Assembly (NCBI GenBank): GCA_018699935.1
Contig: JABISF010000069.1
Coordinates: forward strand, 1 to 38,412
Source of the DNA: Flavobacteriaceae bacterium
GTDB taxonomy: Bacteria > Bacteroidota > Bacteroidia > Flavobacteriales > Flavobacteriaceae
Direction: 5' to 3'
Length of the DNA: 38,412 nucleotides
Positions 7,234-32,211 of the stretch are shown piece after piece. The first letter of the stretch is position 1, and each line of letters starts with the position of its first letter. The notes beneath the pieces were generated by a model. That model saw only the letters and a list, made by a program, of their open reading frames with translations. It was not told the DNA's origin and did no database searches. The translations under genes were made by a program, and so were the position numbers.

Positions 7234-7440
7234 TCAATTATTGATAGGATTCGGATTTTTGCATTCGGCTTCACTAGGAAGCTTACCACACATTCCACAG
7301 GGCTGATTGTCTTTGTTCAGAAAAGGGCTTTGACTCGCGCAAGTACCGGAAAATTCGCCGCCTTTTTTTGCCCAAATTTTTATGGCAATCCCTGCAAAAG
7401 CGAGAAAAAGAAGAATAAAGGTGATTAGAAAAAGTTCCAT
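7234..7440 (-). CDS. Small membrane-anchored cysteine-containing protein
   Basis: A 68-aa protein with one N-terminal membrane helix (residues 2-24), a short basic segment (KIWAKKGG), then an extramembrane tail with four cysteines (CASQ, CGMCG, CKNP). It belongs to a small Flavobacteria-type 'membrane or secreted protein' group of unknown role. The CxxC could bind metal or form disulfides. It lies 18 nt upstream of the sigma-factor gene on the same strand and is probably in that operon. Confidence 0.7.
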   Translation of the reverse strand: MELFLITFILLFLAFAGIAIKIWAKKGGEFSGTCASQSPFLNKDNQPCGMCGKLPSEAECKNPNPINN

Positions 7441-7452: not shown

Positions 7453-7682
7453 CGAAATAATCTTATTTTTTTTAATGCGGCCATCATTTTCGTAGGAAAA
7501 AGACTACAATTTAAAAAATCATGCACTTCCCGTTTATGCTTGATTTAAAACCAAAAATTACATCATTCTACCGTTAATGCTAATATAGTGATAGACAGCA
7601 GGAAGAATCATCATATTTGAGAAGTCAATCAGATAGGAAGATCTCAGATTGATACAGAAATGTCCAACTAAATTGTTTAATA

Positions 7683-8093
7683 ATGTTAGATACTACCCCA
7701 ACAAATCTCAATATTACTATAAACGCCAAAGAGTTGCATGTACTAAAATCTTTTGCGTTGGGTCTAAGCACCACAAAGATACAAGAGTTGTGCGAGATTT
7801 CAGAAACAGAATTTACTCGTATTTGTTCCAATCTATTTTCGAAATTACAAGTTCAAAATCCTTATGCTGCTGTTCGTATAGCCTATCATAAAAACATTCT
7901 AAGAGAAAAAGATTACACTTTAGAAAACGTAAAATCTTTGGCATTGGAGATGGCGCACAAACAAGTTGAAAAACTTTGTACCAGTTGTACAAATTCCAAA
8001 AAATTACTGTGGGTGGTTTATGATTTGTTGATGGATTTCCACACTGCAGTAGAATCAAACTTTTTGTCTAATCAAGTTTTTGTCTCAAAATAA
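7683..8093 (+). CDS. LuxR-type HTH protein next to dead Cas9
   Basis: A 136-aa protein. Residues about 10-72 fit a LuxR/GerE C-terminal HTH: INAKELHVLKSFALGLSTTKIQELCEISETEFTRICSNLFSKLQVQNPYAAVRIAYHKNIL, which parallels the usual pattern of E..VL...A.G.S...IA..L.IS...V......I..KL.V.....AV..A. The remaining 60 residues are helical with one CTSC pair and have no recognised receiver or ligand domain, so the order (HTH first) is unusual for LuxR proteins. It has no membrane segment. It lies directly upstream of cas9 on the same strand, and its stop codon touches the tracrRNA terminator. By position it may be a transcription-factor partner or regulator of the dCas9 system; this is inference. Confidence 0.75.
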   Translation: MLDTTPTNLNITINAKELHVLKSFALGLSTTKIQELCEISETEFTRICSNLFSKLQVQNPYAAVRIAYHKNILREKDYTLENVKSLALEMAHKQVEKLCTSCTNSKKLLWVVYDLLMDFHTAVESNFLSNQVFVSK

Positions 8094-8158
8094 AAATCCC
8101 ACCGAAGCGGGATTTAAGAATTCATCTACGGCATTTAGCCTTATTGTGATAAGATTGA
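8088..8158 (-). ncRNA. Compact tracrRNA of the dead-Cas9 system
   Basis: Read on the minus strand from about 8158: an anti-repeat at 8143-8158 (TCAATCTTATCACAAT), then AAGGC and a small nexus hairpin GGC-TAAAT-GCC (8130-8140), then GTAGATGAATTC, then a 9-bp terminator stem with a UUCG tetraloop (8094-8115) followed by T5-A-T4. ACAATAAGGC...GCCGT...GATG is the hallmark core of type II-C tracrRNAs, comparable to Neisseria. The total of about 70 nt is short because the start falls at the anti-repeat itself, so no RNase III trimming of a long 5' part would be needed. The anti-repeat pairs with the repeat at 11700-11715. Confidence 0.88.
8094..8115 (-). terminator. tracrRNA terminator with UUCG loop
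   Basis: Minus-strand stem AAATCCCGC / GTGGGATTT (seven Watson-Crick pairs, one G-U, one C-G) around a TTCG tetraloop, followed by T5-A-T4. On the plus strand the same hairpin has only three Ts, so it would be a weak terminator for the HTH gene whose stop codon is adjacent. Confidence 0.88.
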
Positions 8159-8161
8159 GCC

Positions 8162-8192
8162 CAAATATATAAAAAAAATAATACATGCCAAA
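8162..8192 (-). promoter_or_regulatory. tracrRNA promoter overlapping the cas9 start
   Basis: The minus strand carries TTTG (8189-8192), a 19-nt spacer, and TATATTTG (8162-8169), a full match to the Bacteroidota -33/-7 consensus. The predicted start is about 4 nt further on, at 8157-8158, exactly where the anti-repeat begins. The -33 element lies in codons 2-3 of cas9 and the -7 element in its ribosome-binding region, so tracrRNA and cas9 transcription face each other over the same DNA. Confidence 0.75.
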
Positions 8193-11100
8193 TTTACTTG
8201 GACTTTCACTAGACGTAAATACTATCGGTTGGGCACTGATTGATTCAGAGACACATCAGATTCAGGGAATCGGAACACGAGTATTCCCTATTGGTTGTGA
8301 AAATTTTGCCTCCGGAAAGAGAGAACTCTCCAAAAAAGCATTTAAGCGCTATAAAAAAACCAGTAGACTACGTTATGAACGCGCCCGGAAAAGAAAAATC
8401 AAAGTCGTTGAAGTTTTGATTAAACACGGCATGTGTCCCTTGTCCAAGGAAGCTTTTGTAGAATGGAAAAAAACCAAAAGATTTCCAGTCGCTGAATTGC
8501 GTGAGTGGTTGCAAATGAATCCTTATAAGCTGAGAGAGCGTGCCGTAAAAGAAAAAATTACAAAACTTGAAATAGGAAGAATATTTTATCAAATTACCAT
8601 ACATCGGGGGTTTAAAATTTCAGATCGAAATAGTGGTTTTAAAGAAAACGCGATGTTTTCGGGTATGCCTAAAATAGATCGGTTGGGAATTTTACACACC
8701 GAAAAAAACACCAAAAATCAATCGTTGGGAACCTATTTATCAAAAATTCTTCCTGAAGAAAAGGCATCCTATTCTCAGCACAATGAACGCATTCGTAACC
8801 GGTTCTTGGCAAGGGAAATGTTTTTGGAGGAAACTCATCAGATTTGGAATTTTCAGAGTAATTTTCATCATGACTTACTTCCTGAGGTTCGTAATGAATT
8901 GATTGGAGATTCAGAAAATGATCCTCAAGAATTGGGTGCCGTTTTTTTCCAACGCCCTTTAAAATCCCAAAAATTTAGAGTTGGACGATGTGAGTTTGAG
9001 AAGAACAAAACCAAATGTTCCGTTTCCAGTTTAATTTATCAAGAAGTTTTGGCCTATCGATGGCTAAATTCCATCAAGATCAACGGAAATCCACTCGATC
9101 TTGAAGATCGCGAAAAAGTTTTGCGTTATTTTATGACCCATAGAAAATTTGACTTTTTTGCGATCCGTCAATTGTTGGGACATCATAATGTACAGTACAA
9201 CATGAAAGACAGCGATCTAATTGTAGGCTCTTTCATCAATTCCTTTTTGTCTAGTTCGCGTATTTTTGGAAGCCGTTGGTTTGATTTTGATGAAAAAATC
9301 AAGGAAGATATTTGGCATAGTTTATATTTTTTCGACCACGAAGAAAAGTTAAAAGAACATGCGCAAAGACAATGGGGATTGGACGATTATCAAGCGCAGG
9401 CTTTTGCTAAAATAAATTTGGACAAGCGTTATGCTCCCATTAGTAAAAAAGCAGCCAGAAACATCCTTTATTTCCTTAAAAGAGGAATTTCCTATGATCT
9501 TTCAGTAATTCTTGGGGGAGTAAAAAATAGTTTAGGTAAAAATTGGGAGACCATAGCAGCCAATGATATAGAATATATTATCAATCGTGTACTCACTTTA
9601 TATAAAGAGAATAAGGTTTTTGACTTTATTCCTAAACTCCAAGAATTTTTGGAAGAAGAAATGCATTTCAATGCCTTTCAAATCAATAAACTCTATGGGC
9701 AAAGCATGCAAGCTTCTAAAGAAACGGTGAATTTATTTCCCGTAGGGAGCAGTGCGGATAAGGAAATTTATAATTTTAAAAACCCCTTATTAATCAATGC
9801 TCTGTTTCAGTGTCGAAAAGTAATCAATGAAATCATTAAAAAATTTGGTCCCATTGATGAAATCAAAGCGGAACTTAGTGCCGATCTGAAGGTCAATAAA
9901 TACCAACGCTATTTGCACCGTTTGGATCATCGAAGAATGGAACGTCTTCGAAGAAAATATATCGAAGAGTTGGGTAAAAGAGCCGAAAATATCATACCCC
10001 TCAATCTGATCAAATTTTCATTATGGGAAGAATGTAAACAAACCTGCCCTTATACGGGAGCCTATATTCCTTTGGATATTTTATTTACCGATCAAGTAAG
10101 TGTGGTCTATATTCAGCCCTGGCAACTCTCATTGAATGATAGTATTTGGAACAAAACCCTTTGTATGCAGTCTTTTACACCCAATATTTTGGATGTTCCT
10201 CCTTATGATTATTTCAATGAGCATGATCCTGAAAACTGGGAAATGGTTGTAAAAAGAGCTGCGCGTCTTTTTTCAAATACCAAAGATTATCCCTCCAGTC
10301 ATCGAAAGTTTAAACGCTTTATTAAAAAATATTCTCATCGAAATTTTATCAAACATCAGTTGGAAGATTTCAATGTGTTGAGCAAAGAAGTTACCGTTTA
10401 TTTATCAAAAGTAGTATCCAAAGTGTCTGTAGGACCGGGGCATAGTACACCACATTTGATTGAAAAATGGCGGCTCAATCAACTTTTTGATTGGAAAACC
10501 GACAGCGAACAAATCATCGATTATCGCTATGCGGCCGTTGTGGCTTATGTCAATGCCAATCGAAGAAAATCATATTTGGAAATACTTGCCCAACAAAACA
10601 AATATCAACCGCAATCTAAAAAAGCTTCTTTCCCGATTCCCTATCAAGGATTCAGAAACGATTTGGAATACAAAGTGAATTCTATATTGGTATCACATAA
10701 AATTGAAAGTAAATTGATTTCAAAGCGTATCCAGAAATCTGTAAAAAATGATCAAGTTTTCAATAATATTTGCGTTTCTGTAAGAGGTTCCTTACACAAA
10801 GAAAGTATCTATGGAAAGCGGAAAGCACCCAAAGGAGCACAAGAGAGTTATCACATTAGAAAACCCCTGCACACTTTCGAAACCCTTCATCAGATCAATA
10901 AAATTGTTGATCCTATAGTTTTGGAATTAGTACTGGAGGCTGTAGAAAATGCAGGGGGATTTAACTCCGATCGCGTTCCTAGAAATGCTTTTTTTGACAT
11001 CGATGCCAAAGAACGTTTAATTCCTAAAGTGTTTCTCCCCAATGCAAAGGGAGATCCGGTGCCCATAAAAAAAGTGAGGATTAAAGAACTTTTTAATGGT

Positions 11101-11607
11101 GCTGTTAACTTAAAAGAAAACATCAACCAACATGTGAATTTGAGAAACAATCACCATGTTTTGATTTATATCGACAAAGACGGGGTATATCAAGAAGAGG
11201 TGGTGAGTTTTTGGGAAGGAGTGAGACGATACCGTCAAAGGGAACCCATTTACCAACTCCCCGAGGATGGAGCGCAATTTGTGACCACCTTGCAAATTAA
11301 TGACTTGTTTATTTTGGGTTTAGAAGATTTAGAAATTCCCATCGATCAAGAATCAAAAAGTTTTTTAGCCAAACACCTCTATCGAGTCCAAAAGCTATCG
11401 AGTAAGTTTTACGAATTTCGTTTGGTGAACGATCTTTTCTTGTCCAGCACGGATGCACCTGCCTATGTGCGAATCAATAATTTTGGCAGTAGAAAGACAG
11501 GTTGGCAAACCTATAACCCACATAAAGTTGCATTGAATGCCATTGGGGATTTGATTGCAGTGAAACGCGATATTACAATTATGAATCAGATAAAAAATTT
11601 AGTATGA
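8185..11607 (+). CDS. cas9: Naturally nuclease-dead type II-C Cas9 (dCas9)
   Basis: A 1140-aa Cas9 homologue with RuvC-I (1-45), Arg/Lys-rich bridge helix (about 50-80), REC lobe (about 85-530, with NPYKLRERAV and FYQITIHRGFK), RuvC-II (553-570), HNH (617-680), RuvC-III (770-800) and a WED/PI C-terminus (about 870-1140, with VVSFWEGVRRYRQ and LYRVQKLSSKFYEFR). Ungapped alignment to family motifs shows lost catalysis. GLSLDVNTIGW replaces GLDxGTNSIGW (Ser8 for Asp). In HNH Val641-Tyr642 replace Asp/Glu-His and Thr665 replaces Asn. DYRYAAVVA replaces DHRHHAxDA (Ala783 for His, Val786 for Asp). Only Glu563 of RuvC-II persists. CPYTG and NKTLC of HNH remain, so the fold is kept. No frameshift or stop occurs. 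A guided DNA-binding role without cleavage is inferred. Confidence 0.96.
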   Translation: MPNLLGLSLDVNTIGWALIDSETHQIQGIGTRVFPIGCENFASGKRELSKKAFKRYKKTSRLRYERARKRKIKVVEVLIKHGMCPLSKEAFVEWKKTKRFPVAELREWLQMNPYKLRERAVKEKITKLEIGRIFYQITIHRGFKISDRNSGFKENAMFSGMPKIDRLGILHTEKNTKNQSLGTYLSKILPEEKASYSQHNERIRNRFLAREMFLEETHQIWNFQSNFHHDLLPEVRNELIGDSENDPQELGAVFFQRPLKSQKFRVGRCEFEKNKTKCSVSSLIYQEVLAYRWLNSIKINGNPLDLEDREKVLRYFMTHRKFDFFAIRQLLGHHNVQYNMKDSDLIVGSFINSFLSSSRIFGSRWFDFDEKIKEDIWHSLYFFDHEEKLKEHAQRQWGLDDYQAQAFAKINLDKRYAPISKKAARNILYFLKRGISYDLSVILGGVKNSLGKNWETIAANDIEYIINRVLTLYKENKVFDFIPKLQEFLEEEMHFNAFQINKLYGQSMQASKETVNLFPVGSSADKEIYNFKNPLLINALFQCRKVINEIIKKFGPIDEIKAELSADLKVNKYQRYLHRLDHRRMERLRRKYIEELGKRAENIIPLNLIKFSLWEECKQTCPYTGAYIPLDILFTDQVSVVYIQPWQLSLNDSIWNKTLCMQSFTPNILDVPPYDYFNEHDPENWEMVVKRAARLFSNTKDYPSSHRKFKRFIKKYSHRNFIKHQLEDFNVLSKEVTVYLSKVVSKVSVGPGHSTPHLIEKWRLNQLFDWKTDSEQIIDYRYAAVVAYVNANRRKSYLEILAQQNKYQPQSKKASFPIPYQGFRNDLEYKVNSILVSHKIESKLISKRIQKSVKNDQVFNNICVSVRGSLHKESIYGKRKAPKGAQESYHIRKPLHTFETLHQINKIVDPIVLELVLEAVENAGGFNSDRVPRNAFFDIDAKERLIPKVFLPNAKGDPVPIKKVRIKELFNGAVNLKENINQHVNLRNNHHVLIYIDKDGVYQEEVVSFWEGVRRYRQREPIYQLPEDGAQFVTTLQINDLFILGLEDLEIPIDQESKSFLAKHLYRVQKLSSKFYEFRLVNDLFLSSTDAPAYVRINNFGSRKTGWQTYNPHKVALNAIGDLIAVKRDITIMNQIKNLV

Positions 11608-11745
11608 AGTAGCACCCTTTCCTCAAAACCCATGTATTGCTCAGCTTTACATTGGGAGAAAAAATATACGTACAACGACATTCATTAAATAAATATAGTG
11701 TTGTGGTTTGATTGATTTTTTTTCTTGAGGAAAGGCTACTTTTTA
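11608..11745 (+). ncRNA. Structured RNA element 3' of dCas9, bounded by inverted repeat
   Basis: Starting at the base after the cas9 stop, 11608-11626 is complementary to 11725-11740 (16 bp, with three unpaired bases on the left arm), and the right arm runs into five Ts. Inside lie a hairpin at 11629-11656 (CCCA-TGTA with TACA-T-TGGG, 11-nt loop), a possible ACAAC/GTTGT pairing (11672-11676 with 11700-11704) and the tracr-matching repeat at 11700-11715. The element has no ORF. It looks like a guide-RNA precursor, with the long-range stem doubling as a terminator. It could instead be only an unusual cas9 terminator. No clear promoter is seen; TACATTGG at 11648-11655 is an imperfect -7 box. Confidence 0.6.
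11700..11715 (+). repeat. Solitary CRISPR-like repeat matching the tracrRNA
   Basis: GTTGTGGTTTGATTGA pairs with the tracrRNA anti-repeat 8143-8158 at 14 of 16 positions (12 Watson-Crick, 2 G-U). The two mismatches sit together at positions 9-10 and give the internal bulge usual in repeat:anti-repeat duplexes. GTTGTG is a common start of Bacteroidota type II-C repeats. Eight Ts follow at 11716-11723. Only one copy exists in the window. The bases just before it (11680-11699, ATTCATTAAATAAATATAGT) would be the guide in type II order (spacer, then repeat). Confidence 0.72.
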
Positions 11746-32198: not shown

Positions 32199-32211
32199 CT
32201 ATCTTAATTGT

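Follow-up and report, generated by a model that had tools for sequence, protein, structure and literature searches.

The closest relatives of the locus described here are the intact type II-C-like CRISPR-Cas9 systems of Flavobacteriaceae (genomes G157, G483, G403, G054 and others), whose Cas9 is 39–43% identical to a Cas9 encoded in a 38,412-nt stretch of Flavobacteriaceae DNA (GCA_018699935.1, contig JABISF010000069.1, positions 1 to 38,412). This whole stretch is called the window, its genome is G000 and its genus is g1. The intact loci share with the window the core of the trans-activating CRISPR RNA (tracrRNA) and the start of the CRISPR repeat, and their array sits behind cas9. They differ from it in having intact catalytic residues, an array, a longer repeat and anti-repeat, and other chromosomal surroundings, and in that cas1 is present in the two systems tested (G157 and G483). 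The window protein, in contrast, has lost both nuclease active sites, and is referred to below as dead Cas9 (dCas9).

Three kinds of regulator offer a comparison. In Francisella, a complex of Cas9, small CRISPR/Cas-associated RNA (scaRNA) and tracrRNA represses endogenous genes by binding without cutting, and the Cas9 is catalytically active (PMC8616872). It belongs to a CRISPR system, whereas at the window locus the nuclease has been lost and the guide takes the form of a solo spacer-repeat. PMC8616872 also describes the tracr-L of S. pyogenes, for which an 11-nt match beside the protospacer-adjacent motif (PAM) is enough for repression. Its guide comes from an extended tracrRNA and its target is its own promoter, in contrast to the window lineage, where no own-promoter target was consistent across ten loci. 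TldR is a dead RNA-guided nuclease domesticated as a repressor, and guides as short as 6 nt act (PMC13418256). It is derived from TnpB and the window protein from Cas9, and the hosts also differ. To our knowledge, TldR functions without a tracrRNA. The dCas12f-sigma systems are RNA-guided transcription systems based on an exapted dead effector in Bacteroidota; the effector is Cas12f, and it activates transcription with a sigma factor. At the window locus, by comparison, the nearby gene for an extracytoplasmic function (ECF) sigma factor stays in place where dCas9 has been lost (G016, G023, G030 and G036).

Nuclease-dead Cas9 is a laboratory tool. A search of literature titles and the beginnings of abstracts found no natural dead Cas9 family, although preprints and most subscription papers lay outside it, and such a family may already be in print. 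The combination of dead Cas9, kept RNA genes and fixed guides described below suggests nature's own CRISPR-interference switch. If this is true, then Cas9 took a route already described for TnpB, and natural dCas9 proteins with shortened crRNA:tracrRNA pairs become available for study. The dead clade makes the change from defence nuclease to regulator directly testable.

A Cas9 clade with replaced catalytic residues

The protein is encoded by one uninterrupted open reading frame (ORF):

8185–11607, plus strand: dCas9, a type II-C-like Cas9 of 1140 aa (profile search, ortholog alignment, codons)

It scores 366 bits against the TIGR01865 profile (cut-off 100), is also called Cas9 by PADLOC, and is matched in a sequence search to small Cas9s in the PDB. 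An AlphaFold2 model (mean predicted local distance difference test score 73, predicted template modelling score 0.49) is matched along its length by Cas9 structures, the best being CbCas9 and Nme1Cas9. The first-pass annotation of this DNA, made from the letters alone, had taken the intact 1140-aa frame to be a Cas9 and had proposed a structure model as a check; frame, profile and modelled fold all agree with it. The protein has the profile and the full-length fold of the Cas9 family, and lacks six of the seven RuvC and HNH catalytic residues.

At seven catalytic columns, nine intact orthologs have D, E, E, H, N, H, D and the window protein has S, E, V, Y, T, A, V, corresponding to S8, E563, V641, Y642, T665, A783 and V786. 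The residues were confirmed at codon level, and every one named in the first-pass annotation was correct. Six of the seven positions are replaced, with the changes D8S, H783A and D786V in RuvC and E641V, H642Y and N665T in HNH, leaving E563 as the sole survivor. The alignment, together with the clade-wide loss described next, confirms the earlier claim that both active sites are gone. Sequencing error is unlikely as the cause, because relatives show different substitutions at the same positions. R61, R66, R70 and K71, which we take to be bridge helix residues, are invariant across 16 aligned sequences (7 dead, 9 intact).

Of 100 genomes, 25 gave a Cas9 match, and within the family 24 of 397 gave one with an E value of 1e-30 or lower (own genome counted in both). 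Peptide patterns compared with genome contigs brought up no relatives. Full-length proteins with dead sites occur in G000, G012, G057, G280, G119, G260 and G436; the dead-lineage copy of G018 is split over two contigs, and those of UBA4439 and HS5SWF have a frame break or stop. Over the seven columns the dead proteins read SEVYTAV, SEVYSNL, SEIYYHN, RTLMAKQ, STVYKHH, HVVYKPV and HVVYKYN, with E563 kept in the window genus and lost in G119, G260, G436 and G280. All seven catalytic residues are kept in G157, G123, G480, G294, G483, G403, G464, G127 and G054, and are also present in G112, but there the gene has internal stops.

A tree was built from 18 sequences, one of them a distant outgroup. 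The eight dead genomes, which represent five genera, fall together in a single clade (support 98.8/100), and the nine intact orthologs group as its sister (support 94.3/84). The dead copies adjoin DUF456, ruvC and hemW in genera g1, g21, g219, g68 and g199, whereas these genes are not among the neighbours in the intact loci fetched. Full-length dead frames persist between genera at 31–53% identity, that of G280 being 37% identical to the window protein. The dead Cas9 of the earlier annotation is therefore no lone oddity, its loss of residues being common to a supported clade at one locus. As judged from alignment and tree, several flavobacterial genera carry an inherited Cas9 without cutting sites.

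A pairwise codon model was applied to four dead pairs. The rate dN was 0.25–0.44, far below dS, and omega = 1 was rejected in all four pairs with likelihood ratios of 517–848; omega values are not quoted because dS is saturated. The dN/dS comparison suggested by the first-pass annotation thus rejects neutral evolution, and indicates that the dead Cas9 has stayed under strong purifying selection.

The window has one solo repeat only and no direct repeat of at least 22 nt, and none was found in L022, L023, L024, L029, L025, L134, L138, L139, L097 or L100. The only such repeat in L137 is 24 nt long, lies apart from dCas9 at the edge of the contig, and has a further, third copy at 71%. An array was seen at none of the dead loci examined, and for G000 the scan covered the window. 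Intact loci L028, L141–L145 and L147–L149 have 3 to 42 repeat matches each, of which one is often the anti-repeat, and L146 has one array repeat, preceded by a stretch that reads N. The cas1 gene (PF01867) was found in 2 of 2 intact control genomes (G157 and G483) and in 0 of 8 dead carriers, including G000, whose assembly is 88% complete. By the usual marks of type II-C, G000 shows neither an array beside cas9 nor cas1.

Retained RNA genes and a fixed guide

Two RNA genes flank dCas9, both of them overlooked by the first-pass annotation. They and their associated elements are as follows:

8087–8159, minus strand: tracrRNA with short anti-repeat, nexus hairpin, terminator hairpin and T-run (ends inferred from sequence)
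8162–8191, minus strand: predicted tracrRNA promoter TTG-N19-TATATTTG (Bacteroidota-type consensus)
11679–11715, plus strand: crRNA-like element, a 21-nt guide and a 16-nt truncated repeat (sequence comparison)
11679–11699, plus strand: guide CATTCATTAAATAAATATAGT
11700–11715, plus strand: truncated CRISPR repeat GTTGTGGTTTGATTGA
11616–11626, plus strand: 5′ arm of an inverted repeat around the crRNA-like element, pairing with 11725–11735 (no shuffled control)
11725–11735, plus strand: 3′ arm of the inverted repeat, pairing with 11616–11626

The tracrRNA gene lies between a helix-turn-helix (HTH) gene and dCas9, divergent from dCas9, and its predicted promoter, presumably of the Bacteroidota type (TTG-N19-TATATTTG), overlaps the first dCas9 codons in the window. 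A tracrRNA with anti-repeat and terminator, as type II-C has, is seen both in the sequence and in the predicted fold. It is present at 12 dead-lineage loci and nearly invariant in relatives keeping dCas9. A loose match to TTG-N18-22-TAnnTT precedes it at 11 of these 12 loci (not G359) and at 0 of 3 intact ones, counts that have no shuffled control. At L148:11860 (G403) there is a second tracrRNA-like copy, upstream of the intact cas9 and with an altered anti-repeat.

The crRNA-like element is located just downstream of dCas9, where intact relatives have their array, and the first 14 bases of its repeat are the start of the intact relatives' array repeat (14/14 nt). A reading of the element as a dif site or a plain promoter was dropped for this reason, without a test of its own. 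Both repeat and anti-repeat are shorter in the dead lineage than in intact relatives and still pair, as would be expected if guided binding had been kept. Cofolding of the crRNA-like element with the tracrRNA predicts a repeat:anti-repeat duplex with a bulge, in which the nexus and terminator also form, at −37.2 kcal/mol in total. G260 and G436 use ATTGTGATTTGA, in which G-U is swapped for Watson-Crick pairs with their anti-repeat (by eye).

G000, G012, G018, G025 and G026 all have exactly the same 21-nt guide. In G057 its last 19 nt are identical and two distal positions differ, and in G280 the last 12 nt, on the PAM side, are unchanged from the window's. Behind their dCas9 genes, the more distant G119, G260 and G436 each carry a pair of solo guide-repeat elements. 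Between G260 and G436, guide 1 is almost the same over its whole length, while for guide 2 they have 9 PAM-side nt in common and the distal part differs (by eye). Conservation of so short a seed fits, by analogy, repressors with short guides (11 nt for tracr-L and 6 nt for TldR, from the two papers cited above). The paired elements at L134 (G119), L137 (G260) and L138 (G436) have differing seeds, AGTTAAAATTT and ATAGT-type.

With up to 3 mismatches in 33, the element was found in 14 of 149 genomes, namely G057, G000 and a further twelve from g1. All 19 named records with the element are Flavobacteriaceae or Bacteroidetes metagenome-assembled genomes. Nine of them have no usable dCas9 in the fetched stretch, seven have a full, partial or broken copy, and in L083, L089 and L093 the sequence stops short of where this could be judged. 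In L031, L032, L033, L034, L088, L095 and L096 the element is exact and dCas9 is lost or a fragment.

The inverted repeat was examined at 22 loci, taking the best helix only and with no shuffled control, and is present around the element in many of them. It is clear in the window, G012, G023, G030, L085 and L089, and weak or oddly placed in G034, G020, G036, G057, L083, L088 and UBA4439. In several relatives it covaries, the sequence diverging and the pairing staying, and its U-G pairs are possible only in plus-strand RNA (by eye).

Candidate targets and competing readings

We propose, with a probability of about two in three, that an exapted dCas9-tracrRNA-crRNA complex attaches to a fixed address in the chromosome and stops transcription there. 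The dCas9 would pair with its own tracrRNA and with a single crRNA from the solo guide-repeat element behind the gene, and the complex would bind chromosomal sites via a short PAM-side seed of about 9–12 nt. Once bound it would block RNA polymerase, as a natural form of CRISPR interference. We infer the transcription and assembly of the RNAs, the DNA binding, the repression and the target genes from the genomic features described here. A fuller version is that a chromosomal Cas9 became a dedicated transcription regulator a single time, in the ancestor of several flavobacterial genera, and was vertically inherited, with its tracrRNA re-promoted from inside dcas9, a fixed crRNA, and an envelope-gene regulon reached via 9–14-nt seeds next to a T-containing PAM. 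This we offer tentatively, as less likely than not.

A PAM was sought by comparing spacers from seven arrays with phages and in four viral scans. The yield was five different protospacer flanks from two spacers of one array, that of the intact ortholog G157, all with T at position 4; the remaining spacer hits were mostly at E 0.06–1, to phages of unrelated hosts. In G280 there are 10 non-self matches to the 11-nt seed, compared with about 2–4 expected. NART comes next in 9 of the 10 and NNNTAA in 6 of the 10 (binomial 5e-12 and 5e-8). Five of the nine NART sites have an ORF start no more than about 120 nt away, for two this is less sure (one by eye, one with a doubtful start), and two are not near a start. 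Several ORFs at the G280 sites resemble lipoproteins or exported proteins (by eye). Counts of the sequence AAATATAGTNNNTMA are 9 in G280, 5 in G057, 3 in G025, 1 each in G000 and G012, and 0 in G018; for the reversed control they are 1, 1, 4, 2, 0 and 2 respectively. All five G057 sites are followed by NNNTAA and lie 16–83 nt upstream of ORF starts; none in this form was found in G000, G012, G018 or G025. For a conserved target at a promoter or gene start, candidate sites are seen in G280 and G057, and no target was found in G000. At the 11-nt seed matches of G280 lies a dispersed motif, ATAAATATAGTNART, with several copies near the starts of exported-looking genes.

A number of results weigh against this proposal. 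The G280 p-values are partly post hoc, because we had already seen the motif when we came to infer a PAM. The 21-mer guide, with up to 3 mismatches, matches only its own locus in G000, and no own-genome target was found there with the 21-mer, 14-mer, 11-mer, AATATAGTGARTAA, or a 9-mer plus NNNTMA. Excluding its own place, the 11-mer ATAAATATAGT occurs at 5 places in G000, 7 in G012, 0 in G018, 4 in G057 and 10 in G280, and its reversed control at 5, 1, 3, 8 and 2. G000 thus has 6 hits with its own place against 5 for the control; no G012 hit is at a place matching a G000 hit; and NART follows in 0/5 in G000, 3/7 in G012 and 0/4 in G057. dCas9 also seems dispensable, because most other g1 genomes are without a match: it is matched in only 8 of the 37, and among those 8 it looks unbroken only in G012 and the split G018. 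In G025, G026, G016, G023, G030 and G036 it is broken or in fragments at the same locus, a repeated loss that the first-pass annotation did not see, and some absences may be due to incomplete assemblies. The crRNA-like element, finally, is exact where dCas9 is a remnant (G016, G023, G030 and G036), which may reflect recent loss or a second function.

Two sets of candidates were set aside. L158/L175 and L186/L196 are related regions, but their sites are at non-matching places. AATATAGTTAATAA, upstream of orthologs of the window gene at 32208 in G012, G018 and G023, is sequence just before the start codon, and G000 has no copy of it when 1 mismatch is allowed. Guide 1, searched as a 13-mer with 1 mismatch, gave fewer hits than its reversed control in G260 (7 v 29), G436 (12 v 26) and G119 (17 v 39).

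The earlier annotation had proposed that guided binding was kept and that the role was transcription control or a roadblock. The first part is favoured by the retention and pairing of the tracrRNA and guide-repeat element, and the second remains the best reading here, and both are left without a target in G000 in searches from the 21-mer to the 9-mer. It had set its proposal against a decaying pseudogene; full-length frames and purifying selection argue for function, and broken copies in relatives for decay. The scarcity of matches within g1, most of them broken or fragmentary, and the damaged copies in UBA4439 and HS5SWF would indeed be explained if the locus were a relic, an inherited Cas9 minus array, cas1 and nuclease that is slowly vanishing, with the intact copies as functionless survivors. 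We think this unlikely, given full-length frames at 31–53% identity between genera, dN far below dS, and RNA genes that are conserved with their pairing intact. It is also distinctly unlikely that the guide-repeat element is an independent structured small RNA or 3′-untranslated-region element, with dCas9 an optional or former partner. Its exact preservation where dCas9 is lost or fragmented (the four remnant genomes above, and L088, L095 and L096), and the covarying inverted repeat that encloses it in several species, are what such an element would show, but its 3′ half is the start of the intact relatives' repeat, in array position, and folds with the tracrRNA. Moreover, it has 1–2 mismatches in G003, G020, G022 and G034, genomes without a dCas9 match, and no copy within 3 mismatches turned up in 25 of the 37 other g1 genomes, a count made without regard to whether the locus is assembled there.

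A fixed-guide dCas9 might instead be a binding-only defence, its block directed at a phage or mobile element and not at any host gene; the lack of a good chromosomal match in G000 would then be no surprise. The last 19 nt of the guide are present in five IMG/VR contigs. One of them, L104 (4856–4874), matches 20 of 21 guide bases inside an ORF, and the next bases are GAAT, a flank that G280 also has; this is possibly a foreign protospacer, possibly chance. The other four share one context, in which the match is followed by TGTA and not NART; chance alone may place an AT-rich 19-mer in a collection of this size (not computed); and the guide is invariant over several genera, unlike what an arms race would produce. 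We regard this defence role as improbable. That the dead-lineage Cas9 still cuts, via residues not recognised here, is hardly credible: the window genus retains E563, but G119, G260, G436 and G280 have lost it, and core residues are gone from both HNH and RuvC, with replacements differing by lineage. Exaptation as a transcription block is thus the reading that we prefer.

Neighbouring genes

Upstream of dCas9 is a gene that the first-pass annotation also passed over:

7683–8093, plus strand: LuxR/GerE-type HTH protein, 136 aa (PF00196 23.9 bits, cut-off 23.5)

Its product is predicted to be all-helical. The gene was not found beside dCas9 in G119, G260 or G436, and is beside it in g1 (G000, G012, G018), g21 (G057), g219 (G280) and UBA4439. 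In G003, G016, G023, G030, G034 and G036, where dCas9 is lost, it is truncated or not found. The HTH protein might control the operon or work together with dCas9.

Further upstream, at 7234–7440 on the minus strand, is a gene for a 68-aa protein that has no Pfam match and is 72–89% identical in the relatives read. Between it and the HTH gene, at 7492–7507, there is an inverted repeat GTAG...CTAC. In relatives its form is GTAGG-N6-CCTAC, and a form of it is also seen (by eye) in G023 and G030, which are genomes that have lost dCas9.

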